A DNA stretch of 25,226 nt from a virus. This document shows positions 2 through 14,368 of this stretch, piece after piece. The DNA lies in IMG/VR virus record IMGVR_UViG_3300044630_000946, positions 1 to 25,226 of that record; one strand, written 5' to 3'. Under the pieces are notes generated by a model. The model was given only the letters and a program-made list of their open reading frames with translations, was not told the origin of the DNA and ran no database searches. Positions within the stretch are counted from its first letter, which is position 1; each line of letters opens with the position of its first letter. The position numbers and the translations under genes were made by a program.

Positions 2-799
2 CCTGCTGGTGAAGTGTCAAAAGAACATGGATTGTTTTTTTGCTTTGGATGTCAAACCACAAAAACTCTTGTTGAGTTTGTAATGTATGTATCTAATAGA
101 ACCTACTTTGAGGCAATAAGATATATTAAAAGTAAAGAGCAAGAAACTAGCATTGAGACATCAGTCAACAAAGCGTTAATAGATAAACCAGAGTTTGTTA
201 AATATGACGAACTATTGATTAAAAGATTGAATAATAATGCATTAGAGTCTCCAAGAGCAATTAGGTATTACGAAGGTAGAAAAATAACTAAAGACTCAAT
301 AATAAAATTTAATCTTGGTTATTCAGAAAAACAAGATTCCGTAACAATTCCAGTACATTCTCCAGACGGTATTTGTATTGGATTTGTTGCTAGAACAGTT
401 GAAGGTAAAGAATTTAAAAATACGCCTGGTTTGCCAAAAGGTAAGACATTGTTTAATTTACACAGAATAAAGACTTCAAGCATTGTCTATGTAGTAGAGT
501 CTTCATTTGATGCAATTAGACTAGATCAAGTAGGATTCCCTGCGGTTGCTACGCTAGGGGCTAATGTTTCTGCAGCACAAATAAAACTATTAGAAAAGTA
601 TTTTAATAGTATTGTTTTAATTGCAGATAACGATAATGCAGGAATAATAATGAGAGATAAGTTAATTCAAAGACTTGGATCTGTTGTTACTTCTGTGTAC
701 ATAGATAAAAAATATAAAGATATAGGCGACATGGATGATGATGCAATTAAAAAACTGGAGTTTAAGTTTGACAATTCTATTACCAGCATGTTAAAATAG
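2..799 (+). CDS. DnaG-type primase, 5' partial (CHC2 zinc finger remnant + TOPRIM)
   Basis: The reading frame is open to the left edge, so the true start lies outside the window; the GTG at 14 is probably internal. The N-terminal part shows the second half of a CHC2 zinc finger: FFCFGC with cysteines at nt 41-43 and 50-52, followed by a hydrophobic helix and a FxEAI-like segment. A TOPRIM domain follows: the glutamate of VVESSFDAIR (nt 497-499) and the DxDxxG-like ADNDNAG (nt 623-643), which bind metal in primases. No helicase domain follows, so this is a primase-only protein that would synthesise RNA primers for the polymerase encoded downstream. It heads a tightly packed replication block. 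The family call is solid; the exact N-terminus is unknown. Confidence 0.85.
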   Translation, partial: PAGEVSKEHGLFFCFGCQTTKTLVEFVMYVSNRTYFEAIRYIKSKEQETSIETSVNKALIDKPEFVKYDELLIKRLNNNALESPRAIRYYEGRKITKDSIIKFNLGYSEKQDSVTIPVHSPDGICIGFVARTVEGKEFKNTPGLPKGKTLFNLHRIKTSSIVYVVESSFDAIRLDQVGFPAVATLGANVSAAQIKLLEKYFNSIVLIADNDNAGIIMRDKLIQRLGSVVTSVYIDKKYKDIGDMDDDAIKKLEFKFDNSITSMLK

Positions 800-826
800 A
801 TATAACAAATAAGGAGAAAAAATAAT

Positions 827-1483
827 ATGACTATTGTAAAGGGACTAAAAAACATTAATGCCCTAGTTGACAAGCCAAAGTATGATGAAAACTCTCCAAA
901 GGTAAGATGGTTAAAACTTGCCGATGGACAGTCTGCAAAAATCAGGTTTATTGAAGAACTTGACGAAGACTCTGCAAACTATAATGCAGATCGTGGATTA
1001 GCACTTGTTGTTAAGGAACACACAAATCCAAAGGACTACAAGCGCAAGGCTGTAGACACAATGGAATCAGAAGGTCGTGACTGGGCTGAAGAGATGCATC
1101 GCAAAGATCCAAAGGCTGGCTGGAGAGCACGTCTTCGTTTTTATTGCAACGTACTTGTAGATGATGGAATTGAAGAGCCATACGTGGCTATCTGGTCAAT
1201 GGGCGTAAGCAAGCAATCTGCATTTAATACTATTCGTGAATACGCACTGGAAACAGGCAGTATTTCAAACCTTACATGGAAAGTGAAGCGTAATGGTCAG
1301 GGAACTGAAACAAGTTATACACTTATTCCATCTGCACCAGACAAAGAACCATTTGACTGGACAACACAAAAGCCATACGCTCTTGAGTTAGCATTAAAGA
1401 AAATTCCTTATGCTGAACAAGAAGCATTCTATTTGGGGTTTGACACTCCATCCGTAACTTCATCAACCAACACAGATTGGTAA
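827..1483 (+). CDS. Probable phage single-stranded DNA-binding protein
   Basis: A 218-aa soluble protein with a clear Shine-Dalgarno (AAGGAG) before the ATG. It has a basic, aromatic-rich core, with segments such as WRARLRFYCNVLV and a predicted beta-rich centre. The Ser/Thr-rich tail ends in TDW, reminiscent of the exposed tails of ssDNA-binding proteins. It lies between primase and polymerase and stops 1 nt before the polymerase ATG, the usual place for an SSB in such operons. Homologous proteins in environmental phages are often annotated as ssDNA-binding. I see no diagnostic catalytic motif, so the call rests mainly on composition and position. A different replication accessory role remains possible. 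Confidence 0.5.
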   Translation: MTIVKGLKNINALVDKPKYDENSPKVRWLKLADGQSAKIRFIEELDEDSANYNADRGLALVVKEHTNPKDYKRKAVDTMESEGRDWAEEMHRKDPKAGWRARLRFYCNVLVDDGIEEPYVAIWSMGVSKQSAFNTIREYALETGSISNLTWKVKRNGQGTETSYTLIPSAPDKEPFDWTTQKPYALELALKKIPYAEQEAFYLGFDTPSVTSSTNTDW

Positions 1484-1484
1484 T

Positions 1485-4400
1485 ATGAATTACGTAGGCT
1501 TACATGTTCATACTCACTACTCCCTATTTGACGGCATAGCAACTCCACAAGAGTATGTAGACCGTGCTAGCAAGTTGGGTATGAACGCTCTTGCAATTAC
1601 AGATCACGGTTCACTTTCTGGTCACAGAGAGTTTTACCGTTCTGCAAAACAAAAGGGTATTAAGCCAATACTTGGTCTAGAAGGATATATGTGTGCAGAC
1701 ATATCAGATAAAAGAGATAAGTCTGAAAGAACAGGTCAACAAGATCTTGTTTATAATCATATTATCCTTCTAGCCAAGAACCAAAAAGGTTTAGAAAATC
1801 TTAACAAGATTAGCGAAATAGCATGGACAGATGGATTTTTTAAAAAGCCAAGGTTTGATTTTGAAATTCTTCAAAAATATAAAGAAGGAATAATCGTAAC
1901 ATCTGCTTGTCCTAGCAGCGTTATCGTTAAAGCATTAGAAGAGCAGGAATTTGCACTTGCTAAAAAACACATTGGGTGGTTTAAAGATAACTTTGGTAGC
2001 GACTACTACATTGAGGTTATGCCACATAACACACCAGAAATAAATAAATACCTTATTGATCTTGCCGATGAGTTTAATATTAGAGTCGTAGTTACGCCAG
2101 ATTGTCATCACTCTGATGAATCACAAAAGCATATTCAAGAGTTTAAACTTTTAATGAATACTCACGCTAAGGTACAAAAAGATACCACATACGCAAAATC
2201 TACAAAAATTGATTCTATGATGGAACGCCTTGACTATCTTTATGGGGAAGATCGTCAGATAACATTTAACAAATTTGATATTCATTTACTTTCGTATGAA
2301 GAGATTAAAGCAGCAATGGAAAAACAGGGTATTGATAGAGAAGACATATACTCAAACACACTATTGCTAGCAAAGACAGTAGAAGACTATGACATTAAAG
2401 ATGGTCTTGATTTACTTCCAGTACAGTATAAAAATCCAGACCAAGAATTAGCAAACCTAGCCTTTGCTGCTCTAGAAGAAAAAAGATTAAACTCTAACTG
2501 GCTTGGTAATGATATTTACGAACAAAGGCTTGATGAAGAGTTATTTATTATTAGAGATAAAAAGTTTGCACCATATTTTTTAGTAGTTCAAAATATGATT
2601 TCTTGGGCAAAGAAAGAAGGAATTTTAGTTGGTCCAGGACGTGGATCTTCTGCTGGCTCTTTGGTTTGTTATCTTCTAGGAATTACTGATATTGATCCAA
2701 TAGAACATGGACTTTTGTTTTTCCGTTTTATTAATCCAGAACGTAATGACTTCCCTGATATTGATACAGATATTCAAGATACTCGTCGTGATGAAGTAAA
2801 AGATTATCTAGTTAGACAGTATAGGCACGTCGCATCTATTGCAACATTCCTTCAATTTAAAGACAAAGGGGTTGTGCGAGATGTTGCACGAGTTTTAGAT
2901 ATTCCACTTACAGATGTTAACAAGGTTTTAAAACTTGTTGATACTTGGGATGAATATTGCACATCTAAAACTACACTATCGTTTAGAGAAAAATATCCAG
3001 AGGTAGAGATTTATGGAGAACAGTTACGTGGTCGTATTAGAGGCACTGGCATTCATGCTGCTGGTGTGGTTACTAGTAAGAATCCAATATTTAGGTATGC
3101 GCCATTGGAGACTCGCTCTTCTCCTGGATCCGATGATCGCATTCCTGTGGTTGGTGTTGATATGGAAGAGGCTGAAAAAATTGGTCTTATTAAAATTGAC
3201 GCATTAGGTCTTAAAACTTTAAGTGTAGTTAAAGACTGTATTGATATGATTAAAACAAATCATTATAAAGATATTGACCTTTTATCTATTGACATGGCAG
3301 ATCCAAAGGTATATGAAATGCTTTCAGACGGACACACAAAAGGTGTATTTCAGTGTGAAGCAACTCCATACACAAACCTTTTAGTAAAAATGGGAGTAAA
3401 GAATTTTAATGAGTTGGCAGCATCAAATGCTCTAGTTCGTCCAGGCGCTATGAATACTATTGGTAAGGATTATATTGCTCGTAAGCACGGTAAGCAGAAT
3501 GTTTCCTATACCCACCAAATTATGAAAGAATTCACAAGTGATACATATGGGTGTATTCTTTATCAGGAACAAGTTATGCAGGCTTGCGTTTATCTTGGTG
3601 GAATGACAATGGCAGAGGCTGACAAGGTTCGTAAGATTATTGGAAAGAAAAAAGATGCAAAAGAGTTCAATATATTTCAAGATAGGTTTGTTGCTGGGGC
3701 GAGTAAGTACATATCTCCTAATAAAGCCTTGGACCTTTGGCACGACTTTGAAGAGCATGCGGGATACTCGTTTAACAAGAGCCACGCAGTTGCTTACTCT
3801 ACTCTCTCGTATTGGACGGCGTGGTTAAAGTATTACTATCCGCTTGAATTTATGTTTGCCCTTCTTAAAAATGAAAAAGATAAAGATGGTAGAACAGAGT
3901 ATTTGATTGAAGCAAAGCGCATGGGCATATCAGTTAAATTGCCACACATTAATGATTCAGATTTAGATTTTAAAATTGAGGGTAAGGGCATTCGTTTTGG
4001 ACTAACGGGCATTAAATTTATTTCAAACAACATTGCACAAAAATATATTGATGCAAGACCATTTAATAGTTATAAACAACTTGAAGAGTTTACATTTACA
4101 AAAGGTAATGGAGTAAACAGTAGAGCCCTAAATGCACTAAGGTTAACTGGTGCTGCAACATTTTCCGATAATCCACGTAATGATGAAGACATTAAAGAAA
4201 ATCTTTACGAGTACTTAAATCTTCCAGAGTTTAATATTTCTATTCCATCTCACTATTATGCATTTATTCAGTCAATTGAAGATTTTGAAGAAAAGGGATC
4301 TTTTATTTTAATGGGTATGGTTAAAGCAATTAAGAGAGGAAAGGGTTGGTCACGAGTTGAACTTCTGGACAAAACTGGTAGCGTTGGTATCTTTGATGAA

Positions 4401-4772
4401 GAGTCAACAACTATTGAAACGGGTCGTACTTACTTAGTTCTTGCTAATGATAATAGGATTGTCTCTGCAATTCCTGTTGATGAAATAAAAGGATCAACAA
4501 ATGCACTTGTTAAGTTTTTGGGTTATAAGCAATTGCCTTATACAGAGGATGAAATGTTCGTTGTTTCATTTAAATCAAGAATAACGAAGGCTGGAAAGAA
4601 AATGGCTTCTTTAACCTTGGCAGATATTTCAAGAGATTTGCACTCCGTGACAGTATTTCCTACTGCATTTCCAAAAGCATACATGCACATTGAAGAAGGC
4701 AAGTCGTATAAATTTAGTTTTGGTAAAACCAAAGATGGCACGGTAATTATGGAGGATGTAAATGTCAGTTGA
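1485..4772 (+). CDS. dnaE: DNA polymerase III alpha subunit (DnaE type) with intact PHP domain
   Basis: A 1095-aa C-family replicative polymerase. The N-terminal PHP domain (about 1-270) has H7, H9, D16, H41, E66, H92, C142, D206 and H208. By position these match the nine metal ligands of PHP domains that proofread, as in mycobacterial DnaE1. The palm carries GPGRGSS (383-389), PDIDTD with catalytic D425 and D427, and the third carboxylate D572 in KIDALGL. The NKSHAVAY segment and a C-terminal OB-fold-like region (about 930-1095) complete the usual order. Length is near that of cellular DnaE (about 1160 aa). It would copy the phage genome, possibly with the host sliding clamp. The start is 1 nt after the SSB stop, and the end overlaps the recA-like gene by 11 nt. 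Very sure of family. Confidence 0.96.
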   Translation: MNYVGLHVHTHYSLFDGIATPQEYVDRASKLGMNALAITDHGSLSGHREFYRSAKQKGIKPILGLEGYMCADISDKRDKSERTGQQDLVYNHIILLAKNQKGLENLNKISEIAWTDGFFKKPRFDFEILQKYKEGIIVTSACPSSVIVKALEEQEFALAKKHIGWFKDNFGSDYYIEVMPHNTPEINKYLIDLADEFNIRVVVTPDCHHSDESQKHIQEFKLLMNTHAKVQKDTTYAKSTKIDSMMERLDYLYGEDRQITFNKFDIHLLSYEEIKAAMEKQGIDREDIYSNTLLLAKTVEDYDIKDGLDLLPVQYKNPDQELANLAFAALEEKRLNSNWLGNDIYEQRLDEELFIIRDKKFAPYFLVVQNMISWAKKEGILVGPGRGSSAGSLVCYLLGITDIDPIEHGLLFFRFINPERNDFPDIDTDIQDTRRDEVKDYLVRQYRHVASIATFLQFKDKGVVRDVARVLDIPLTDVNKVLKLVDTWDEYCTSKTTLSFREKYPEVEIYGEQLRGRIRGTGIHAAGVVTSKNPIFRYAPLETRSSPGSDDRIPVVGVDMEEAEKIGLIKIDALGLKTLSVVKDCIDMIKTNHYKDIDLLSIDMADPKVYEMLSDGHTKGVFQCEATPYTNLLVKMGVKNFNELAASNALVRPGAMNTIGKDYIARKHGKQNVSYTHQIMKEFTSDTYGCILYQEQVMQACVYLGGMTMAEADKVRKIIGKKKDAKEFNIFQDRFVAGASKYISPNKALDLWHDFEEHAGYSFNKSHAVAYSTLSYWTAWLKYYYPLEFMFALLKNEKDKDGRTEYLIEAKRMGISVKLPHINDSDLDFKIEGKGIRFGLTGIKFISNNIAQKYIDARPFNSYKQLEEFTFTKGNGVNSRALNALRLTGAATFSDNPRNDEDIKENLYEYLNLPEFNISIPSHYYAFIQSIEDFEEKGSFILMGMVKAIKRGKGWSRVELLDKTGSVGIFDEESTTIETGRTYLVLANDNRIVSAIPVDEIKGSTNALVKFLGYKQLPYTEDEMFVVSFKSRITKAGKKMASLTLADISRDLHSVTVFPTAFPKAYMHIEEGKSYKFSFGKTKDGTVIMEDVNVS

Positions 4773-5775
4773 TATACAAGATGTACTAGCACAGTTAGAC
4801 CCAAGAATTAGGAAGCGTCTTGGTACAGGAGAAGGAATTAACTTTGAGTATCAGCCCACTCCAAGTTTTGGTTTAAACCGTGCACTAGGCGGGGGATTAC
4901 CATACGGTAGACAGGTACTTGTATGGGGAAGCAAATCATCGGCTAAGTCATCTATGTGTTTACAGATGATTGCTTTGGCGCAAGCAGAAGGCAAGGTTTG
5001 TGCATGGATTGATTCTGAAATGTCCTATTCGGAAGACTGGGCTAAACTGATGGGGGTAGATCCAACAAAACTAATTTACTCTCAAGCACGTACTATTAGC
5101 GACATGGTAGATGTTGGCGTTGGACTTATAAATGCTGGAGTTGATCTTATTGTTATTGACTCAATTACATCAATGCTTCCTGCAATATATTTTGAAAAAG
5201 ATTCAGACGAAATGAAAGCACTTGAAAACACAAAGCAAATTGGTGCAGAGTCTAGAGACTTTAGCAATGCCTGGAAAATGCTTAACTATGCTAACAATAA
5301 AGTAAAACCTACACTGCTTGTTCTTATTTCACAATCAAGAAATAATATTAACGCAATGTATACAAGCCAACAGCCTTCTGGTGGTCAAGCAACGAAGTTC
5401 TATTCATCTTGTGTCATTAAGTTGTTTTCTTCTGAGTCAGAAAATCAAGCAATTAAGGGAAAGATTAAGGTTGGAGATAAATTAATTGAAGAAAAAATTG
5501 GTAGAAAGATTCGTTGGGAACTCCAATTCTCTAAAACCTCTCCAGGGTTCCAATCTGGTGAGTATGATTTTTATTTTAGAGGTGACAATATTGGCATTGA
5601 TGCAATAGGAGATTTAGTTGATACTGCAGAATCAATGGGCTTGGTTAATAGAACTGGCGCATGGTATCAGTTAGATGACGGCACAAAGGTACAAGGTCGT
5701 GATGGTTTTATTGCTCGTGTTAAAGAAGATCTAGATTTACAGGAACAACTTAAGAAAAAAATAATTAATGCCTGA
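4762..5775 (+). CDS. RecA-like recombinase with variant Walker A
   Basis: A 337-aa RecA/RAD51-family ATPase. Visible features are the FGLNRALGGGLPYGR entry to the core, a Walker A at residues 56-64 (GSKSSAKSS), a Walker B-like LIVIDSI, the LLVLISQSRNNI segment comparable to the RecA L1/L2 region, and a C-terminal lysine-rich tail. In cellular RecA the P-loop reads GPESSGKTT; here the glycine before the invariant lysine is alanine (A61). It should form filaments on ssDNA for strand exchange in recombination-dependent replication or repair. The ATG overlaps the polymerase stop by 11 nt, and the 3' end overlaps the next gene by 8 nt, suggesting translational coupling. Family call firm; ATPase level unknown. 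Confidence 0.9.
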   Translation: MSVDIQDVLAQLDPRIRKRLGTGEGINFEYQPTPSFGLNRALGGGLPYGRQVLVWGSKSSAKSSMCLQMIALAQAEGKVCAWIDSEMSYSEDWAKLMGVDPTKLIYSQARTISDMVDVGVGLINAGVDLIVIDSITSMLPAIYFEKDSDEMKALENTKQIGAESRDFSNAWKMLNYANNKVKPTLLVLISQSRNNINAMYTSQQPSGGQATKFYSSCVIKLFSSESENQAIKGKIKVGDKLIEEKIGRKIRWELQFSKTSPGFQSGEYDFYFRGDNIGIDAIGDLVDTAESMGLVNRTGAWYQLDDGTKVQGRDGFIARVKEDLDLQEQLKKKIINA

Positions 5776-5956
5776 ACAAAATTTTACTGTATATCCTGGA
5801 AAATGGCCATGTAAGACTTGCCAAGAAGTTGTAACATCTTTAAGGTATTGGCCAGAAACTGGAAATGCCACATGGATGTGTACACAAAAACATATCTCAA
5901 AAGTTAACCTATTGCCTCCAACAAAGAAGGATTATGAGCGAAAAGAACGAAAGTAA
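5768..5956 (+). CDS. Small zinc-ribbon phage protein
   Basis: A 62-aa protein with a CKTC pair near residues 15-18, then WMCTQKH (one Cys and one His), and a basic tail rich in Lys, Arg and Glu. The likely zinc site is therefore CxxC plus C/H. The YPGKWPCKTC start and ATWMCTQKH segment feel familiar from small conserved proteins of environmental phages, but no function is known to me. It overlaps the recA-like gene by 8 nt and the following nuclease-like gene by 23 nt, so it is translated with the recombination genes. A role as a small nucleic-acid-binding accessory factor is inference from the zinc motif and location. Confidence 0.65.
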   Translation: MPEQNFTVYPGKWPCKTCQEVVTSLRYWPETGNATWMCTQKHISKVNLLPPTKKDYERKERK

Positions 5957-6224
5957 AAGAATAGGTGCTAAGCAGCATAAGAATTCTGGTAGAAATACAC
6001 AGAAGGGCGATGCTACTTGGAGGGGATTTGTTGTTGACTTTAAAGAAGCCAGCAAATCTTTTACATTAAATAAAGATGTATGGGCAAAGGCTGTTACTGA
6101 CTCTATTCAGGCAGGTAGAGATAAATCTCCAGCCATTGTTGTAATTCTTGGAGAAGGTAATACAAAGGTAAGACTTGCTATAATTGAAATGAACATGCTA
6201 GAGCAATTAACAGAGGAAAAATAG
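5934..6224 (+). CDS. Small PD-(D/E)xK nuclease, Holliday-junction-resolvase-like
   Basis: A 96-aa protein, taking the ATG at 5934 (preceded by AGAAGG, a short 3-nt spacer) rather than the upstream in-frame ATG at 5865, which would overlap the zinc-ribbon gene almost fully. Residues 17-37 hold NSGR, then G25-D26, then V34-D35-F36-K37, the D...DxK signature of the PD-(D/E)xK nuclease fold seen in small archaeal and phage Holliday-junction resolvases. A beta-strand region (AIVVILGEG, RLAIIEM) follows. It would resolve branched recombination or replication intermediates. Its place between a recA-like gene and a RuvC-like gene fits. The fold call is motif-based; substrate is inferred. Confidence 0.5.
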   Translation: MSEKNESKRIGAKQHKNSGRNTQKGDATWRGFVVDFKEASKSFTLNKDVWAKAVTDSIQAGRDKSPAIVVILGEGNTKVRLAIIEMNMLEQLTEEK

Positions 6225-7409
6225 ATGATATTAAGAAATCCAACTGAAGTATTTTTAGTTAGTTTATTAATTATTTTTTTACTCCCATATTTATTTTGGA
6301 AATTTTTTAAAACAGACAATTATATGCCGTTGGCAGTAGTTCAAATTGTATCTGGAATTATTCTTGGACCAGGAGTACTTGGAAAACAATTTCCAGAATT
6401 CTATAATACAGTATTTACAGAAGACAATATCAAAGTTTTAAGTGGAATAGCCTGGTGGGGCGTAATGTTATTTGTCTGGACTGCTGGTGTTGAATTAAAT
6501 TTAAAAGAAGCAATTACTAAAAAGAAAGATACATTGGTAACATCTGTCTTTGCTTTGTTGACTCCTTTATTCTTTGGTTCTATTCTTGCATTAATTATTT
6601 CAAATTATCCTGGATGGAAAGGTAGTGATGCTAGTACATGGCAGTTTACTTTTGGAATTGGAATGGCTACAGCAGTAACAGCATTGCCAATTCTAATTCT
6701 TCTTATGGAAAAACTTGGAATTTTTAATAAAGAATTAGGTAAAAGAACATTAAGATATGCAAGCCTGGATGATATTTTTATTTGGGCAGTACTTGCTATT
6801 ATTATTATGGATTGGCAAAGAGTTATTAGACAAATAATTTTCTTACCAATATTTATATTATTTTCTTATTTGTTAAACAAACTTATTGCAAAAGTTTCAG
6901 AACCTCGTGATCGCTGGTCAATAGCAATGCTTTGGATTATCTTAGTTGGGTTTGCAGCAGACTGGTCTGGACTGCACTATATGGTTGGTGCATTCCTTGC
7001 TGGAGTAACAATGAAACCTGAATGGTTTAATAAAAATGAAATGCAAATATTTAGAAATAACATACTTTTAATTCTTATGCCAGTATTTTTTCTTATTACT
7101 GGTTTAAAAACTGGTTGGTCTGTATCTGGTACATTGGTAATATTTGTTGCTATTATTTTATTAATTGTACAATTTATGTCAAAGGTTTTAGGAGTTTTAG
7201 TTGCTGGAAAAATTCTAAAGTGGAAAAAAACAGATGCTTTTATTATTGGAGTATTGCTCCAAACAAAGGCTTTAATTGAAATTATTTTTTGTACAGTTTT
7301 ATTGGACAAAGGAATAATTACATCTCAGATGTTTACTGCACTATTAATAATGGCAATATTAAGCACAACAAGTACTATGCCAATAACAAGGAGGTTAATT
7401 AAAAAATGA
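6225..7409 (+). CDS. CPA2-family cation/proton antiporter (phage-encoded)
   Basis: A 394-aa polytopic membrane protein with roughly 11-13 hydrophobic segments. The pattern fits the monovalent cation:proton antiporter-2 family: VSGIILGPGVLG near residue 42, an unwound-helix-like GIGMATAVTALP (144-155), and ASLDDIFIW with a double aspartate at 182-183, the ion-binding pair of electrogenic members such as NapA/NhaA. K348 in QTKALIEII could be the partner lysine. There is no C-terminal TrkA domain. It would exchange Na+ or K+ for H+ across the host inner membrane. The ATG directly follows the preceding stop with an AGAGGA Shine-Dalgarno, and the 3' end overlaps the next gene by ATGA, so it is embedded in the replication operon. 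Family clear; ion specificity unknown. Confidence 0.88.
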   Translation: MILRNPTEVFLVSLLIIFLLPYLFWKFFKTDNYMPLAVVQIVSGIILGPGVLGKQFPEFYNTVFTEDNIKVLSGIAWWGVMLFVWTAGVELNLKEAITKKKDTLVTSVFALLTPLFFGSILALIISNYPGWKGSDASTWQFTFGIGMATAVTALPILILLMEKLGIFNKELGKRTLRYASLDDIFIWAVLAIIIMDWQRVIRQIIFLPIFILFSYLLNKLIAKVSEPRDRWSIAMLWIILVGFAADWSGLHYMVGAFLAGVTMKPEWFNKNEMQIFRNNILLILMPVFFLITGLKTGWSVSGTLVIFVAIILLIVQFMSKVLGVLVAGKILKWKKTDAFIIGVLLQTKALIEIIFCTVLLDKGIITSQMFTALLIMAILSTTSTMPITRRLIKK

Positions 7410-7711
7410 CAACAGAAAAAACAACTATAGATATGGTAAATGGTTTAACAGAGATTGCAGACTATATGCAAGATGAAGAGTTAACGGTTGCATTAACTAT
7501 GATTGCAAAGATTATTATAAAGCCAGACATTCCCCTACAGGCTGCTAGTCTTGAAATCGTAAGGCTACAGGCTATTGCAGCAAAGATGTCTTTTAAAGCC
7601 ACTTGGATGGCGAATGTTGACAAATCTGACAGGGCAAAGAAAAATATATACTTTACAGCAGCACAAGCAATAAACGATTTGGTCTCAGCGCTTAAATACA
7701 TAATGCGCTAA
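7406..7711 (+). CDS. Conserved phage protein of unknown function
   Basis: A 101-aa soluble, mostly helical protein starting in a 4-nt ATGA overlap with the antiporter stop. Segments such as ALTMIAKIIIKPDIP and a KKNIYFTAAQAINDLV tail suggest a small all-alpha domain. It lacks a signal peptide and membrane segments. I recall similar short proteins in other actinobacterial and environmental phages near recombination nucleases, but I cannot name a function. It ends just before an extended -10 promoter for the Cas4-like nuclease gene, so it probably closes the first transcription unit. Confidence 0.7.
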   Translation: MTTEKTTIDMVNGLTEIADYMQDEELTVALTMIAKIIIKPDIPLQAASLEIVRLQAIAAKMSFKATWMANVDKSDRAKKNIYFTAAQAINDLVSALKYIMR

Positions 7712-7713
7712 CC

Positions 7714-7722
7714 TGCTATAAT
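7714..7722 (+). promoter_or_regulatory. Extended -10 promoter for the Cas4-like nuclease gene
   Basis: TGC-TATAAT lies in the short gap after the 101-aa gene; no good -35 is seen 17 nt upstream. The predicted transcript starts near 7729, about 16 nt before the ATG at 7745, which has an AAAGGA Shine-Dalgarno. Confidence 0.6.
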
Positions 7723-7744
7723 TAATATAAACAAAGGATGAAAC

Positions 7745-8608
7745 ATGGCTAAAAACTTACTAAAACAGATTATGATTAAAGATGTTAAAAAGAAGAGCAG
7801 AAATAGCGAAGAAGATGAAAGTCTTGTTGAAGGCTTAGATACTGCCATAAACGCTGGCTACCTTACCAAAACAAAACCAAAGTTTACTAAGAAGACTAAC
7901 TTTTCTGCATCCAATCTAACATATGGTTCAGGAGAATGTCCAAGGTATTGGTCTCTAGCCTTTGATGGTCAAATCTTTTATGATAACTCAGATGCAATTG
8001 GTGTAGCAAATAGAACACAAGGAAGCCTTGGACACGGAAGAATTCAGGAAGCAATAGAAGCCTCTGGTTTACTTGCAGAAGATTTAGAGTTTGATCCAAT
8101 ACCAAGAAAGTATAATCAACAAACTCATCCAGCAATGGAGTTTAGAGTTAAGATTGATGATCCACCTTTTGATGGTTATGGAGATGTCATGCTTGACTAC
8201 AAGGGTGAAAGACTTATTGGTGAAATTAAAACAGTAAGAAACGATGACTTTGAACATAAAAAATTAAGTAGAAAACCTAAAATGGGTCACTTAATGCAAT
8301 TACTAATGTATATGAAGGTTTGGAAAATTGGTAAGGGTGTAATGATTTATGAAAATAAAAACAATCATGAATTACTTACCTTGCCCGTTGTAGTAAATGA
8401 TCAGTATCGTACTTGGGTAGACGAAACATTTGAATGGATGAGAGTAGTTTACAAAAGTTGGCAAGACAAACAATTACCAGAAATTCCTTATCGTTCAAAT
8501 TCAAGAATTTGCAAGTCGTGTCCTATTCAAAAAGCATGCGCTGAAGCAGGAGACGGAACAATTAAGATTAAACCTATGAAATTATTAAAGGACGAGAAAG
8601 ATGAATAA
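7745..8608 (+). CDS. Cas4/RecB-like Fe-S exonuclease (PD-(D/E)xK)
   Basis: A 287-aa nuclease. The active-site pattern is GYGD (D147) followed by GEIKT (E160, K162), the D...ExK motif of RecB-family nucleases. Four cysteines are placed as in Cas4 and AddB iron-sulphur nucleases: C65 in ECPRYWS, then C256, C259 and C265 in ICKSCPIQKAC. The fold therefore probably carries a 4Fe-4S cluster that ties the termini together. It would degrade or resect DNA ends, supplying ssDNA for the RecA-like protein or degrading host DNA. No cas1/cas2 genes or CRISPR array are nearby, so adaptation is unlikely. ATG supported by AAAGGA. Confidence 0.85.
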   Translation: MAKNLLKQIMIKDVKKKSRNSEEDESLVEGLDTAINAGYLTKTKPKFTKKTNFSASNLTYGSGECPRYWSLAFDGQIFYDNSDAIGVANRTQGSLGHGRIQEAIEASGLLAEDLEFDPIPRKYNQQTHPAMEFRVKIDDPPFDGYGDVMLDYKGERLIGEIKTVRNDDFEHKKLSRKPKMGHLMQLLMYMKVWKIGKGVMIYENKNNHELLTLPVVVNDQYRTWVDETFEWMRVVYKSWQDKQLPEIPYRSNSRICKSCPIQKACAEAGDGTIKIKPMKLLKDEKDE

Positions 8609-8610
8609 AT

Positions 8611-8901
8611 GTGAAACTATGTGAAAGGTGCGAGACCCAGTTTACACCAAAGGTAAGTTATCAAATTTATTGTGGAGATATTTGTAGAGAAGAAGCCACC
8701 AAAATAAAGATAGCCGAAAGGTATCAAATAACTCGTAGACAAAGAAGGATAGGCAAGAAAAGACTTTGTATTGGCGGTTGTAAAGAACAACTTTCAATAT
8801 ACAATGACTCTGGGTTTTGTTCTAATTGCAATATAAATAAAAAAGAAGTAGACAAGATGCTAAAACAACTAAAAGGATTTTTTGACTATGAACAAGGATA
8901 A
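8611..8901 (+). CDS. Double zinc-finger protein, GTG start
   Basis: A 96-aa basic protein with two cysteine clusters. The N-terminal one is CERC (4-7) followed by YCGDICR. The C-terminal one is CIGGC followed by CSNC. Between them is a strongly basic stretch (RRQRRIGKKR), suggesting nucleic-acid binding. A GTG 2 nt after the nuclease stop is the best start; the ATG at 8601 in another frame gives only a seven-residue peptide. It overlaps the RuvC-like gene by 14 nt if that gene starts at 8888. I do not recognise a named family. The C-x2-C...FCS-like layout resembles zinc fingers that accompany HNH nucleases, but no HNH motif is visible. Confidence 0.65.
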   Translation: MKLCERCETQFTPKVSYQIYCGDICREEATKIKIAERYQITRRQRRIGKKRLCIGGCKEQLSIYNDSGFCSNCNINKKEVDKMLKQLKGFFDYEQG

Positions 8902-9460
8902 CCCAAAAACAATTTGTGCTATTGACGCAAGCACTAACAGTCTTGCTTTTGCTATTTTTAATAATAATGTCCTAGGCAGTATTGGTAAAATTAATTTTAA
9001 TGGAAAAACAAATTATGAAAAGGTAATGGACGCTTGTGCTAAGACAAGGGCATTTTTTGAACATTTTGGTGGGTTTGAAGCAATCATAATTGAGCATACC
9101 GTATTTATGAACAGTCCCAAGACTGCTGCAGATCTAGCATTGGTTCAAGGGGCACTGCTAGGTGCTGCTGGACTAACTGGAACAAAAGTTATAGGAACTG
9201 TATCACCAATAACTTGGCAAAATTATTTAGGAAATAAAAGACTAACAAAAGAAGAGCAGTTAATTATTAGATCAGCAAACCCTGGAAAATCAGTTTCTTG
9301 GTATAAAACATACGAAAGACAAATAAGAAAAGAAAGAACAATAAAACTAATTGAAATTAACTATGATAAAATTATTAACGACAATGACGTTGCTGATGCT
9401 TGTGGCATCGGCCATTGGGCTATTAATAACTGGGATAAAGCAATAGGAGAGAGTAAATAA
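8888..9460 (+). CDS. RuvC-like Holliday junction resolvase / RNase H-fold nuclease
   Basis: A 190-aa protein with the RNase H-like acidic residues in RuvC order: D13 in CAIDAST, E69 in AIIIEHT, and the D167/D170 pair in NDNDVADA ahead of a C-terminal helix (GIGHWAI). Length is close to RuvC (about 170-190 aa). The ATG at 8888 is preferred over the TTG at 8882 because AAAAGGA lies about 9 nt upstream of the ATG but only 3 nt from the TTG. It would cut four-way junctions before packaging or during recombination. The stop overlaps the halogenase ATG by 1 nt (TAATG), so the two are translationally coupled. Another structure-specific RuvC-like nuclease role is possible. Confidence 0.8.
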   Translation: MNKDNPKTICAIDASTNSLAFAIFNNNVLGSIGKINFNGKTNYEKVMDACAKTRAFFEHFGGFEAIIIEHTVFMNSPKTAADLALVQGALLGAAGLTGTKVIGTVSPITWQNYLGNKRLTKEEQLIIRSANPGKSVSWYKTYERQIRKERTIKLIEINYDKIINDNDVADACGIGHWAINNWDKAIGESK

Positions 9461-10920
9461 TGAAAAATGTAAAAAGTTTAACTGTTGTTGGCGGTGGAAC
9501 TGCTGGTTTAATATCTGCACTTATTTTAAAACAACGTAGCAGTTTAGACGTTAACTTAATTTATTCTTCAAATATTGGCATTATTGGTGTCGGTGAAGGA
9601 TCTACAGAGCATTTTAATAACTTTATGGAATTTGTTGGAATAAAGCCAAGCGAAATTATTAAAGAATGCGACGCAACTTTTAAAATAGGGGTTATGTTTG
9701 ATAATTGGGTAACTAATAAAAAATATTTACACTCAGTTGGTGAACCATTTGGCACAAGGTTTGGACCGTATTATGCAATTTATGCAAAACAAATTTCTGA
9801 AAATTCAGACCTTCTTTGTTCAGATAATCTTGAAAAAAATTTAGTTAATGTAAATTCCTTAAACGTAAATTTAAATCCACCAACCAACCAGTATCATTTT
9901 AACACCTTTAAATTAAACGAGTTTTTAAAAAAAATAGCGTTAAACAAAGGAATTAAACTTTTTGATGATGAAATTATTGACGTTAAACTAGAAGAAAATG
10001 GATTCATTAAAACATTAGTTGGGAAAAAAACAGAATACAGCAGTGACTTTTATATAGATGCAACTGGATTTCAAAAAACTTTAGTAAATAAATTAGAGGT
10101 TAAATGGAAATCTTTTAATAAATATTTAACATTAAATTCTGCTATTACATTTCAAACAAAAGATGAAGATAATTATAACTTTTGGACTTTAGCAAAAGCA
10201 ATGAAATCTGGTTGGAGATTTAAAATACCAACATGGGGCCGCCATGGAAATGGGTATATCTATGACAATAATTTTATTACTGCTGACAAAGCAAAGTTAG
10301 AATTAGAAGAAGAACTTGGTTATGAAGTAGAGATTGGAAAAACATTTAATTTTGATCCAGGCGCACTGGAAACAGTCTGGAATAAAAATTGTGTTGCTAT
10401 AGGCTTAAGTGGAAGTTTTTTTGAACCACTTGAGGCAACCTCTATTGGCTTAAGCATTCAGCAAAGTTTTTTGTTAATGGATAAAATTCAAAACTACGAT
10501 GACAAAGTGATAGAGTCTTATAATAATTCTTTTAATTCTATTGTTGAAAACATAAGAGACTTTGTTGTTTTGCATTATTTAACAAAAAGAAATGACACTG
10601 ATTTTTGGAAAAATATCTTAAATTTAGAAATACCAGAATCATTAAAAAATAATTTAGAAAAATGGAAAACAAAACTACCTACGGGTGAAGATTTTCTCAA
10701 TGTTTCAGGTTACTCAATGTTTGGACCACAAAATTTTATTAAAGTAATGCATGGTCTAAATTTATTTGACAAAGAAGCAATTCTAAAAGAATACAACTTT
10801 TTATCAAATGATTATAGGTCTGCTGCAAATCAAATGATTAATGATCATTTACACAGCCAAAGTTCGTCTAACTTTATGAATCATAAAGACATTCTTAGAG
10901 TTATTAGGGAGTATAACTAA
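9460..10920 (+). CDS. Flavin-dependent tryptophan halogenase family protein
   Basis: A 486-aa member of the tryptophan halogenase family, close in length to PrnA (about 530 aa). An FAD-binding GGGTAG (11-16) is at the N-terminus. GVGEGSTEHF (43-52) and ATFKIG follow; K75 is in the position of the catalytic lysine. The family WxWxIP motif appears as WRFKIP (252-257), with the second Trp replaced by Phe. FFEPLEATSI holds E322 at the place of the second catalytic residue. Known members use FADH2, O2 and halide to halogenate Trp or other aromatic substrates and need a separate flavin reductase; none is seen here. Relatives occur in some marine cyanophages. Fold confident; substrate and activity unknown. 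Confidence 0.85.
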   Translation: MKNVKSLTVVGGGTAGLISALILKQRSSLDVNLIYSSNIGIIGVGEGSTEHFNNFMEFVGIKPSEIIKECDATFKIGVMFDNWVTNKKYLHSVGEPFGTRFGPYYAIYAKQISENSDLLCSDNLEKNLVNVNSLNVNLNPPTNQYHFNTFKLNEFLKKIALNKGIKLFDDEIIDVKLEENGFIKTLVGKKTEYSSDFYIDATGFQKTLVNKLEVKWKSFNKYLTLNSAITFQTKDEDNYNFWTLAKAMKSGWRFKIPTWGRHGNGYIYDNNFITADKAKLELEEELGYEVEIGKTFNFDPGALETVWNKNCVAIGLSGSFFEPLEATSIGLSIQQSFLLMDKIQNYDDKVIESYNNSFNSIVENIRDFVVLHYLTKRNDTDFWKNILNLEIPESLKNNLEKWKTKLPTGEDFLNVSGYSMFGPQNFIKVMHGLNLFDKEAILKEYNFLSNDYRSAANQMINDHLHSQSSSNFMNHKDILRVIREYN

Positions 10921-10923
10921 AAA

Positions 10924-11568
10924 ATGCCAGAGTTAAATGCAAACATACCACCAATACACTGTTACGTAAGGGGTAATTATTTAAGAAATCATAAAGATAG
11001 CCATGATAAATACTTTGAGTGCGTAGTCTTTGGTGTTTCAAGTTTAAAATCTAGAAGCCCACTATTTCATATTATGATGCCAGATGGTGGCCTATGGTGG
11101 AGACTTCCAATTTCTGCTTTTTGTACAGAGCCAGGAGTGCCCGAAGTTGATCTACATAATTTAGTTTTGTGGAATTCTTTTAGTCATCACATTGCTGTAA
11201 CTCAATTTGAAAATCTAACCAACCTTAGAATGTCTTATATAGACAGAACAAAAACAATGAATAAAGGCACTTATCTCTTTACATTAGACTGGCACAATCC
11301 AGATACAAATGTTTTAGATGATGGATATTCTGAAAGTCCTGCAGACCACAAGTGTGGGCATGTCATTCAAAGAGATGATGGAAATTTCGCAATTCAGCCC
11401 AACAACAGGGTAAGAGTTTATGAGCCTTCATTTACCTTGGAAAAAGAATATCTAATTGACAGAATAATTAATGAAAGAAAATATGATGTAGAAAATCAAG
11501 ACAAGTGGATAATGGAAAACTCTGATAGATTTAACTATGATATTAATTTAAACGAAGTTGACAAATAA
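10924..11568 (+). CDS. Conserved phage protein of unknown function
   Basis: A 214-aa soluble protein starting 3 nt after the halogenase stop. The N-terminus (PPIHCYVRGNYLRN, residues 9-22), the GGLWWRLPISAF segment and a tyrosine/aspartate-rich tail resemble uncharacterised proteins I recall from cyanophage and pelagiphage genomes. No membrane segment, signal peptide or catalytic motif stands out; several His, Cys and Trp residues are scattered. It sits between the halogenase homologue and a packaging-related HTH gene. No function can be assigned. Confidence 0.75.
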   Translation: MPELNANIPPIHCYVRGNYLRNHKDSHDKYFECVVFGVSSLKSRSPLFHIMMPDGGLWWRLPISAFCTEPGVPEVDLHNLVLWNSFSHHIAVTQFENLTNLRMSYIDRTKTMNKGTYLFTLDWHNPDTNVLDDGYSESPADHKCGHVIQRDDGNFAIQPNNRVRVYEPSFTLEKEYLIDRIINERKYDVENQDKWIMENSDRFNYDINLNEVDK

Positions 11569-11573
11569 CCCAC

Positions 11574-11729
11574 ATGGCTGCTAAACTATATACAAGCGAG
11601 GCTTGGCTACGTAAACGGTTTCTTATGGATAAAAAATCTCCACAAGATATTGCTAAAGAGTGCGATGCTAGCGTTGAAACTATATATGTATACCTTGCAA
11701 AATTTGGATTAAGGAAGTCAAAAAGATGA
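11574..11729 (+). CDS. 51-aa helix-turn-helix protein
   Basis: A short gene in the gap between two longer ones. It begins MAAKLYTSEAWLRKRF and contains a homeodomain-like HTH (roughly 11-45: SPQDIAKECDASVETIYVYL, then KFGLRK), similar to the DNA-binding domain of resolvases and transposase-type regulators. The stop overlaps the next ATG by ATGA, supporting real translation. Phages often have such tiny HTH proteins near the terminase genes. It could be a regulator or a small packaging-recognition protein. No strong Shine-Dalgarno is visible. Confidence 0.65.
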   Translation: MAAKLYTSEAWLRKRFLMDKKSPQDIAKECDASVETIYVYLAKFGLRKSKR

Positions 11730-12061
11730 AACTAAAACCAGTTTATGAAGATGTTAAACATTTTAATTGTAACGATCTTTATCTTCGTTCCGTTGGAGCA
11801 CCTTCGGGTAATTCAATTTGGAAAACATGTCACTCTATAGCACAGATGCTTATAGAAAAAAATATAGCGTATGGAGATTCTGCTCTTGATCCTGTAAGAA
11901 TTTTTAGTAAGTCAGACCCAGCAGAACAACTTAAAGTTAGAATTGATGACAAGTTAAGTCGTTTAATGAAAGGTACAGACTACCCTGGAGATAATGACAT
12001 TGATGATTTAATAGGATACTTAGTTTTATTAAAAATAGCAAAGGAAAAAAATGTCAACTGA
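11726..12061 (+). CDS. DUF1599-like (nucleotide modification associated) protein
   Basis: A 111-aa helical protein. Residues 45-52 read EKNIAYGD, like the KNxDYGDSW signature of the DUF1599/nucleotide-modification-associated domain. The rest is RIDDKLSRLMKG followed by DDLIGYLVLLKIA, where acidic and basic residues would line an all-alpha pocket related to MazG-like nucleotide pyrophosphohydrolases. The biochemical role is not settled for the family; nucleotide metabolism is likely. It overlaps its neighbours by 4 nt (upstream) and 11 nt (downstream). AAGGAAG lies 11 nt upstream of the ATG. Confidence 0.55.
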   Translation: MKLKPVYEDVKHFNCNDLYLRSVGAPSGNSIWKTCHSIAQMLIEKNIAYGDSALDPVRIFSKSDPAEQLKVRIDDKLSRLMKGTDYPGDNDIDDLIGYLVLLKIAKEKNVN

Positions 12062-12584
12062 ATCAGAACTAATTGAGCATCTTGATGAAGTTAATAAGGT
12101 AGTTACAGAATACCTTAAAGGGCAAGATCCAACAAAAATTTCTAAAGAATTGGATATTCCACGTACTCGTGTTGTTTCATTAATTAATGAGTGGAAGGTT
12201 ATGGCATCTGCAAATGATGCAATTCGTGCACGGGCTAAAGAAGCCCTTGCTGGTGCTGATACTCATTATAGTAAACTAATCACGAAGGCTTATGAAGTTA
12301 TTGATGAATCAAGTTTAACTAATAATCTTAGTGCAAAAACTCAGGCAATTAAGTTAGTTATGGATATTGAAAAATCTAGAATTGAAATGTTACAAAAAGC
12401 AGGGCTTTTAGAAAACAAAGAACTTGCAGAAGAAATGGTTGAAATTGAAAGGCGACAAGAGGTTCTTGTTGAAATCTTAAGAGACATTGCTTCAACTCAT
12501 CCAGAGGTTCGTGATTTAATTATGAAGCGTCTTTCTCAAATTGCTAAAGAGGGAGAGGTAATCACCATTGTCCAAGATGTTTAA
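12051..12584 (+). CDS. Terminase small subunit candidate
   Basis: A 177-aa protein with an N-terminal HTH-like region (about 15-50, LKGQDPTKISKELDIPRTRV) followed by a long helical stretch likely to oligomerise (about 60-150). It sits directly upstream of the large terminase and overlaps it by 17 nt. This is the layout of TerS proteins, which recognise the packaging site and feed DNA to TerL. The sequence is not diagnostic by itself; position and architecture carry the call. Confidence 0.65.
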   Translation: MSTESELIEHLDEVNKVVTEYLKGQDPTKISKELDIPRTRVVSLINEWKVMASANDAIRARAKEALAGADTHYSKLITKAYEVIDESSLTNNLSAKTQAIKLVMDIEKSRIEMLQKAGLLENKELAEEMVEIERRQEVLVEILRDIASTHPEVRDLIMKRLSQIAKEGEVITIVQDV

Positions 12585-14352
12585 TGACTTCTTAGAAGTT
12601 TTAAAAGAAAATCAATTTGACGAGATTCCAGTAGACGCAAAGACATTTGTTGAGTCTGCTGATTATCTTGGGCAGCCACAATTGTCTTTAATACAGTATG
12701 AAATTGTAGAAGCGATGAGTCAAATTTATCGTAAAGAAGAACTACAAGAAATATTTGGATCAGTTGCTGGTGCTCAATATTTTGATAAATATACTAAAAA
12801 TGAAATTATTTTACAACTTGGCAAGGGATCTGGAAAAGACTTTGTATCAACGGTCGCCTGTGCATACATAGTATATAAACTGCTATGCCTTAAAGATCCT
12901 GCTAGGTATTATGGAAAACCAAGCGGGGATGCAATTGATATTATAAACGTAGCCATCAACGCACAACAAGCAAAGAACGTATTCTTTAAAGGATTTAAAA
13001 CTAAGATAGAAAAATCACCATGGTTCGCAGGAAAGTATAATGCAAAGGCTGACAGTATTGAGTTTGACAAATCAATTACAGTTTACTCTGGACACTCAGA
13101 AAGAGAGTCGCATGAAGGTTTAAACTTGTTACTTGCAGTTCTTGATGAAATTTCTGGTTTTGCATCTGAGGTTGGAACTGGTAATGAGCAAGGCAAGACT
13201 GCAGAAAATATTTATAAAGCATTTCGTGGGTCTGTAGATTCTCGTTTTCCAGATTTAGGAAAAGTAGTATTGCTTTCATTCCCCCGCTATCAAGGTGACT
13301 TTATTTCCAAAAGATATGAAGATGTCATTGCAGAAAAAGAAACCATTGAAAAGAAACATCTTTTTATTATGAATGAAGACTTGCCACACGATGATCCAAA
13401 TAATCAATTTGAAATTTCATGGGACGAAGATACTATTCTTTCTTACAAGGTTCCAAAAGTTTTAGCACTTAAAAAAACAACGTGGGATGTAAACCCTACT
13501 AGGAAAATAGATGATTTTAAATTAGCATTCTACACAGACCTTGGTGATGCCATGATGCGGTTTGCTTGTACGCCAACATTTGCATCAGATGCATTTTTTA
13601 AAGATAAAGCAAAATTAGAAAAAGTAATGACATTAAGAAATCCAGTTGACAATTTTAGAAGGTTTGATGAATCATTTAAACCTGATCCAGAAAAGATATA
13701 CTATATTCACGCTGACCTTGCACAAAAGCATGACAAGTGTGCTGTAGCAATTGCTCACGTAGATAAATGGGTAAACATTCAAGTTATTAAAGATTATGAG
13801 CAAGTAGCACCAATGGTTATTGTTGATGCAGTTGCCTGGTGGGAACCAAAAGCGGAAGGTCCAGTTAATTTATCAGAAGTAAAGCAATGGATAATTAATT
13901 TACGCAGACAGGGATTTAATATTGGGGTTGTTTCTTTTGACCGTTGGCAGTCATTTGATATTCAACAGGAATTAAAGGCAGTAGGCATAAAGACCGATAC
14001 CGTTTCTGTTGCTAAAAAACACTATGAAGATTTAGCAATGATGATATATGAAGAAAGAGTTGCAATACCAAGAATTCCTTTATTGCTGGAAGAGATGTCA
14101 GAACTCAAAATTATGAAAAATACTAGAGTTGATCATCCACGCAAAAAATCTAAGGACCTAGCAGATGCTGTATGTGGCGCTGTATTTGGAGCAATATCAC
14201 ATACACCTAAAGATTCTAACCATGAGATTGAGATTCATACTTGGTCTACTTCTGCACGACTTGCAGAGAAACAAAGGGATATGGTAGAATTAGACAACAA
14301 GGAAATGCCTAAAGATGTTAGAGATTTTCTTGATAGATTAAACATAATATAA
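12568..14352 (+). CDS. terL: Terminase large subunit
   Basis: A 594-aa packaging motor. The ATPase domain has a Walker A-like GKGSGKD (85-91) and a Walker B ending in LDE (D193, E194). The C-terminal RNase H-fold nuclease has candidate metal ligands D383 (HADLAQKHDK), D458 (SFDRWQ) and D530/D533 (KDLADAV). Start: TTG at 12568 lies about 9 nt after GGGAGAGG, while the ATG at 12577 would be 18 nt away, so the TTG is preferred. It cuts concatemeric DNA and pumps it into proheads. Unusually, no portal gene follows; large exported proteins come next. Confidence 0.93.
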   Translation: MSKMFNDFLEVLKENQFDEIPVDAKTFVESADYLGQPQLSLIQYEIVEAMSQIYRKEELQEIFGSVAGAQYFDKYTKNEIILQLGKGSGKDFVSTVACAYIVYKLLCLKDPARYYGKPSGDAIDIINVAINAQQAKNVFFKGFKTKIEKSPWFAGKYNAKADSIEFDKSITVYSGHSERESHEGLNLLLAVLDEISGFASEVGTGNEQGKTAENIYKAFRGSVDSRFPDLGKVVLLSFPRYQGDFISKRYEDVIAEKETIEKKHLFIMNEDLPHDDPNNQFEISWDEDTILSYKVPKVLALKKTTWDVNPTRKIDDFKLAFYTDLGDAMMRFACTPTFASDAFFKDKAKLEKVMTLRNPVDNFRRFDESFKPDPEKIYYIHADLAQKHDKCAVAIAHVDKWVNIQVIKDYEQVAPMVIVDAVAWWEPKAEGPVNLSEVKQWIINLRRQGFNIGVVSFDRWQSFDIQQELKAVGIKTDTVSVAKKHYEDLAMMIYEERVAIPRIPLLLEEMSELKIMKNTRVDHPRKKSKDLADAVCGAVFGAISHTPKDSNHEIEIHTWSTSARLAEKQRDMVELDNKEMPKDVRDFLDRLNII

Positions 14353-14368
14353 ATAAACAAGGAGAATA

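Follow-up and report, generated by a model that had tools for sequence, protein, structure and literature searches.

A CPA2-type cation/proton antiporter gene as accessory cargo in the replication module of an uncultured actinophage

Phages carry genes for photosynthesis and for nucleotide and phosphate metabolism; to our knowledge, control of the proton and cation balance of the host by a full-length secondary transporter that a phage carries is hardly documented. Our literature search found no report on actinophage antiporters and one relevant report, in which estuarine viromes yielded viral metagenomic sequences with ion-transport genes that include K+(Na+)/H+ antiporters (PMC13288924). In the portion of that report available to us, the genes are linked to salinity, whereas the kin of the phage described here seem to be freshwater phages, and the family, phylogeny, residues and genome position of the antiporters are not given. 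Among cation/proton antiporters (CPAs) in general, electrogenic members acidify the cytoplasm at alkaline pH (reviewed in PMC7349511), and the eight-position rule of Masrati et al. 2018 associates D-D-K at positions 6-7-8 with electrogenic exchange and a non-polar residue at TM4 position 4 with Na+-type CPA2 proteins (PMC6181914).

The window (the whole stretch of DNA analysed, 25,226 nucleotides) is a 25-kb record from an uncultured virus and is probably a fragment. Its DnaE (55%) and large terminase (54%) are most similar to those of Streptomyces phages of the Stanwilliamsviridae. A WhiB gene is present in a contig of its kin (G005, the contig of locus L002), which points to an actinobacterial host, and also in two other actinophage lineages; the first-pass annotation, made from the sequence alone, had likewise taken the phage for an actinophage. 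The likely host order is actinobacterial, has genomes of 1.0-2.2 Mb and numerous rhodopsin genes, and from this genome size and the rhodopsins it is probably Nanopelagicales. We note that the large genes after the terminase, at 14369-16045 and 16147-18867, where packaging and portal genes might be expected, have only weak matches (extensin-like/fn3 and Ig-like). We also note that G005 and contig G001 (that of locus L006) have unrelated backbones and yet encode CHAP endolysins that are 84% identical; they also have in common a holin-like protein (55%), a class II ribonucleotide reductase (62%), halogenases and WhiB, which suggests one host group and gene exchange.

The Stanwilliamsviridae phages BillNye and Yaboi have the same module as the window, in the order primase, SSB, DnaE, UvsX, small gene, Holliday junction (HJ) resolvase, a variable slot, phrog_9818 gene, exonuclease, small gene and RuvC, but in them the variable slot is filled by short hypothetical genes and the antiporter is absent. 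In the window, the genes for primase, SSB, DnaE-type polymerase and a RecA/UvsX-like recombinase (4762-5775, + strand; Pfam and PHROG matches) lie 5' of the antiporter in one collinear module, and its immediate upstream neighbour is an HJ resolvase-like gene (5865-6224, + strand; phrog_2002, E 2.3e-19). The antiporter gene (6225-7409, + strand; identified by Pfam PF00999, alignment and model) is an uninterrupted, full-length open reading frame of 394 codons. Its ATG at 6225 abuts the TAG of the resolvase gene at 6222-6224, and its TGA (7407-7409) and the start codon of the gene that follows (ATG, 7406-7408) overlap as ATGA, so that the coupling on both sides that had been proposed is borne out as sequence. 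The antiporter had also been placed between a resolvase candidate and recombination genes. The resolvase assignment stands, but the direct 3' neighbour is a phrog_9818 gene of unknown function (7406-7711, + strand), after which come a Cas4/PD-(D/E)XK exonuclease-like gene (7745-8608, + strand; Pfam and PHROG) and, later, a RuvC-like resolvase gene. A second cargo slot after RuvC holds a flavin-dependent (tryptophan) halogenase gene (PF04820; 9460-10920) and a phrog_3704 "ferredoxin" gene (10924-11568).

The antiporter is an accessory cargo gene and not a replication gene. When 80 relatives were fetched by means of the phrog_9818 gene, only three contigs (L011, L051 and L054) had the antiporter; in about 74 of the 80 the HJ resolvase and phrog_9818 genes are 2-55 bp apart, an empty slot, and in L048, L050 and L062 the slot is occupied by another gene of about 184 codons. 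Such rarity indicates that the antiporter is dispensable and, with the lack of any PHROG match to the protein, agrees with the earlier remark that transporters of this size are uncommon in phage replication modules. Together with L003 and the window, the three positive loci represent three distinguishable variants, namely the window, L001-L003, and L004. The most informative relative is L012, which is near-identical to the window (DNA identity 96.5% over 241-6223, 94.7% over 7411-9462 and 95.7% over 10918-15173) and lacks two pieces of it, the segment 6224-7410 with the antiporter and the halogenase segment 9460-10920. In L012 the resolvase gene runs into the phrog_9818 gene, so the flanking genes abut with or without the antiporter, which is thus gained or lost as a unit whose boundaries lie at the flanking stop and start codons. 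The idea that it is embedded among replication and recombination genes thus stands, but it is a clean cargo insertion and not a constitutive part of the module. The 184-codon gene (L048:5447-6001, and likewise in L050 and L062) has no Pfam match and by eye resembles a small 2OG-Fe(II) oxygenase. A further variable point of the replication module is seen in L001-L003, where a gene that by eye is methyltransferase-like (L001:7135-7713) separates the HJ resolvase gene from a small gene of 62 aa.

An assembly chimera or contamination by a host gene would account for a cellular-looking gene in a phage, but we regard it as next to impossible. The identical slot holds the antiporter in four other IMG/VR contigs, the near-identical L001-L003 plus L004, which carry four metagenome identifiers, and such repeated recovery at one position excludes the chimerism that the first-pass annotation had named as fatal to its proposal. 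The gene is also low in GC like the phage (30% versus 36% for the window), and its subfamily is absent from about 790 sampled actinobacterial genomes and from the 201 genomes searched in the likely host order (see below). Within-group comparisons by the NG86 method gave dN/dS values of 0.05-0.18, and of 0.11-0.18 inside the window phage group (dN and dS of 0.032/0.294 for window-L001, 0.089/0.484 for window-L004, 0.0055/0.114 for L005-L006 and 0.033/0.544 for L193-L196); these low ratios indicate strong purifying selection on the antiporter. It therefore has the marks of a phage cargo gene: flanks of phage genes, variable presence and purifying selection.

The encoded protein is, from its sequence and model, a complete member of the CPA2/NhaA-fold class. 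The Pfam profile PF00999 (Na_H_Exchanger) covers residues 15-382 with 110 bits (cut-off 26.2; E 1.5e-31), the NCBIfam CPA2 model TIGR00932 matches at 75.9 bits, below its cut-off of 238.3, and hydropathy indicates 12 strong membrane segments. A profile search of the PDB returned Thermus thermophilus NapA as the sole match (E 5e-15), with D182-D183 aligned with NapA D156-D157 and K320 with NapA K305. An AlphaFold model built on a 15-sequence viral-contig alignment had a pLDDT of 83 and a pTM of 0.81 (an 8-sequence alignment gave a pLDDT of 39.5). NapA ranked first against this model with both Foldseek (TM-score 0.77) and VIA-align (Z 35.5, 361 residues, rmsd 3.6 A), followed by other CPAs such as NHA2, SOS1 and KefC, and a viral fold library gave no match at E <= 0.001. 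In the model the helices are broken at 151-153 and 345-348, where the NhaA fold expects the crossing discontinuous TM4 and TM11, while D182-D183 lie inside one continuous helix and K320 inside another. The motif sites are thus V151-T152-A153-L154 in the unwound part of TM4, D182-D183 in TM5, K320 in TM10 and L345-Q346-T347-K348 in TM11. The essential aspartate of the CPA superfamily at motif position 7 is D183, which is invariant, and the protein is CPA2 rather than CPA1 in having K320 at position 8 of TM10 and Y178 four residues before D182, instead of the pairing of a TM5 glutamate at position 5 with a TM10 arginine at position 8. The original description as a full-length CPA2-type transporter with a DD pair is therefore upheld by the open 394-aa frame, a Pfam score well over its cut-off and the NapA fold.

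All 18 subfamily members analysed have the V/I-T-A-L, D-D, K and LLQTKALI motifs, with D182, D183 and K320 present in each; conservation of the DD pair had been suggested as a check, and both residues are invariant in every viral and plasmid copy checked. In trees the 18 group together with 100/100 support, on a branch separate from NapA and from the CHX-like proteins of actinobacteria, and the subfamily falls beside bacterial CHX-looking proteins, which alone represent the CHX side in these trees. Two identities considered for the protein were rejected. Membership in the NapA clade conflicts with this separate 100/100 clade and with the motifs, V-T-A-L and L-Q-T-K-A-L instead of A-T-S-V and P-R-G-E; KefB/KefC identity requires Q-D at positions 6-7 and a C-terminal RCK/TrkA-N domain, whereas the antiporter has D-D and ends at residue 394, following its membrane domain.

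By the eight-position rule, which has not been validated for this branch, D-D-K predicts electrogenic exchange and L154 predicts the Na+-type. Of the roles put forward in the first-pass annotation, adjustment of pH or Na+/K+ balance, effects on the proton-motive force and use of rhodopsin gradients are still hypothetical; what gains support is only the chemistry class, predicted electrogenic exchange of a monovalent cation for H+, and, as the subfamily is nearer to the CHX-like clade, whose electrogenicity is unsettled, than to NapA, the Na+/2H+ assignment is to be read as a motif-based prediction. Our preferred reading, to which we give about an even chance, is that this is a real, functional membrane antiporter carried by a freshwater actinophage as host-physiology cargo, which extrudes Na+ (or K+) and controls pH. 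It would be translated together with the early replication operon and insert into the host membrane, where the proton-motive force would drive about two H+ in for each monovalent cation out, the exported cation being Na+ by the TM4 rule, or K+. Cytoplasmic pH and Na+ would thereby be kept at levels favourable to DNA replication, which might be of greatest use when the surrounding water is alkaline. The candidate host order nearly always has NhaA (92 of 101 genomes), so any benefit to the phage must lie in dosage, timing or a different set-point, and what the phage brings in would be extra capacity or a shifted set-point rather than a missing function. We note that in many genomes of this order the NhaA match falls in two pieces inside a frame of 265-290 aa, as if the protein were shortened or strongly diverged in its middle.

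It is rather unlikely, though to be taken seriously, that the protein belongs instead to the CHX-like branch and exchanges K+ (or monovalent cations broadly) for H+, serving to lower K+, turgor or ionic strength, or to set pH by way of K+, and not to expel Na+. The trees place the subfamily with bacterial CHX-like proteins and not with NapA, its TM4 V-T-A-L and TM11 Q-T-K-A-L are similar to V/I-T-A-F and N-T-R-G-L in these CHX-like proteins, and Na+ is scarce in fresh water. Against this, TM4 position 4 is non-polar, the Na+ type according to Masrati et al. (PMC6181914), and the D-D-K triad is as found in Na+ antiporters.

When IMG/VR was searched for the subfamily with alignments of the phage and plasmid proteins, 24 viral loci came up. 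L005-L007 (58% identity) represent a second actinophage lineage, with a different terminase and backbone, a third comprises L213-L217 and L220 (with WhiB in L214), and a group with QueE/MetK genes, so named by eye, comprises L193, L196-L199, L202 and L219; L202 was excluded since its reading frame is broken. Further loci are L195 and L201/L218. L194, which sits past an integrase at the end of a provirus and whose contig number is styled differently, and L200, a fragment of 67% GC, may be copies from bacteria and not from viruses, and for that reason were not counted as extra phage lineages. GenBank phages gave only matches under 27% identity. A gene for a small DUF389-like membrane protein lies directly 5' of the antiporter in L196 (5453-5992), L193, L197, L202, L201 and L218, two phage groups in which these genes are 63-100% alike, and it is possible that its product is a partner subunit of the antiporter.

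The closest relatives of the window antiporter are in other phages and on plasmids of Pseudomonadota, at 50-58% identity, the plasmid homologues (50-54%) being those of Novosphingobium ES2-1, Variovorax paradoxus VAI-C and Methylorubrum populi pMPPM04. A transmissible stress-tolerance locus containing kefB, which we took to be a candidate home of the antiporter, was rejected, as the plasmid regions around the closely related genes do not contain the complete locus; the Variovorax plasmid has Hsp20 genes about 6-7 kb from its homologue. Genome sampling covered Actinomycetota (394 and 396 genomes, with an actinobacterial centre obtained by way of a class II ribonucleotide reductase), with Pseudomonadota chromosomes outside the sample, and among these Actinomycetota only relatives of 21-32% identity were found (at most about 29% for full-length ones) and none of the phage subfamily. 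In the candidate host order, PF00999 proteins occur in 36 of 151 genomes, the four that could be aligned being Q-D and Kef-like, and a search of 201 genomes gave no convincing copy of the subfamily, only one weak 64-residue fragment with stops. Such absence from the sampled Actinomycetota and host order indicates that the phage gene was not copied from a sampled host gene, and the possible derivation from host antiporters, which the first-pass annotation had wished to see checked by phylogeny, is rejected for the actinobacterial genomes sampled. We consider it possible, though somewhat doubtful, that the V-T-A-L/DD/K/LLQTKALI subfamily is a private mobile antiporter of unrelated phages, drawn from at least three lines of actinophages and one T4-like/Gram-negative line, that controls pH and ions in the infected cell: a viral ion-homeostasis module independent of host NhaA/Kef that moves between phages and plasmids across phyla.

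The positions of the gene in these phages bear on two other possible roles. In L005-L007 it follows holin-like and endolysin genes, and in L213 it is followed by a stretch similar to a holin-like protein, as might be expected of a helper of lysis or energy state, a high-capacity electrogenic exchanger that would put a load on the proton-motive force late in infection and thereby tune the triggering of holin. We judge this improbable: in the window the antiporter lies among the replication genes, with holin/endolysin 12 kb away, and in L195, L196, L199 and L201 it is among metabolic or unrelated genes. The other role is as partner of the flavin-dependent halogenase, giving resistance to, or supplying ions for, a halogenated product. 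A halogenase gene lies close to the antiporter or is linked with it in the window, L001-L003, L213 and L214-L216 and twice in G001, lies 24 bp upstream of it in L195, shares one operon with its homologue on the Methylorubrum plasmid, and is present in 6 of 7 antiporter-bearing contigs versus 3 of 18 without the antiporter, a count in which contigs of one population are not independent. Seen from the halogenase side, however, the link is weak, since only 4 of 80 viral halogenase loci, from two lineages, have the antiporter, and in the QueE/MetK group the antiporter is present and halogenase is absent from the fetched flanks. A partnership is thus very improbable, and the co-occurrence is probably that of common cargo of similar phages. 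Hundreds of related halogenase loci are present in IMG/VR, and the plasmid operon (L185:239-9495) resembles a small biosynthetic cluster, with genes for halogenase, FAD oxidoreductase, amidase, methyltransferase, acetyltransferase and NAD(P)H oxidoreductase beside that of the antiporter homologue.

If the antiporter is active, phages modify cytoplasmic pH and Na+ while they replicate in abundant freshwater bacteria, and the compact subfamily (394 aa, without a regulatory domain) could be assayed in standard antiporter-deficient E. coli strains. Its nearest structural counterpart, NapA (PDB 4BWZ, 5BZ2), has the same fold, the DD and K triad, broken TM4 and TM11 and likewise no C-terminal regulatory domain, but is only about 20% identical, differs at TM4 (A-T-S-V) and TM11 (A-P-R-G-E), and is on a different tree branch. 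The bacterial CHX-like CPA2 proteins of Actinomycetota and others are the nearest broad group (25-29% identity), with a similar style of TM4 and a basic residue in TM11, but are often longer, have N-T-R-G-L in TM11, and often do not have Asp at position 6. Most similar are the "cation:proton antiporter" genes of the Pseudomonadota plasmids, a sister clade with the same length and the V-T-A-L, DD, K and LLQTKALI motifs, though these are on bacterial replicons of another phylum and in other neighbourhoods. The transporter superfamily is thus a known one, and what is new is the subfamily and its genomic home.
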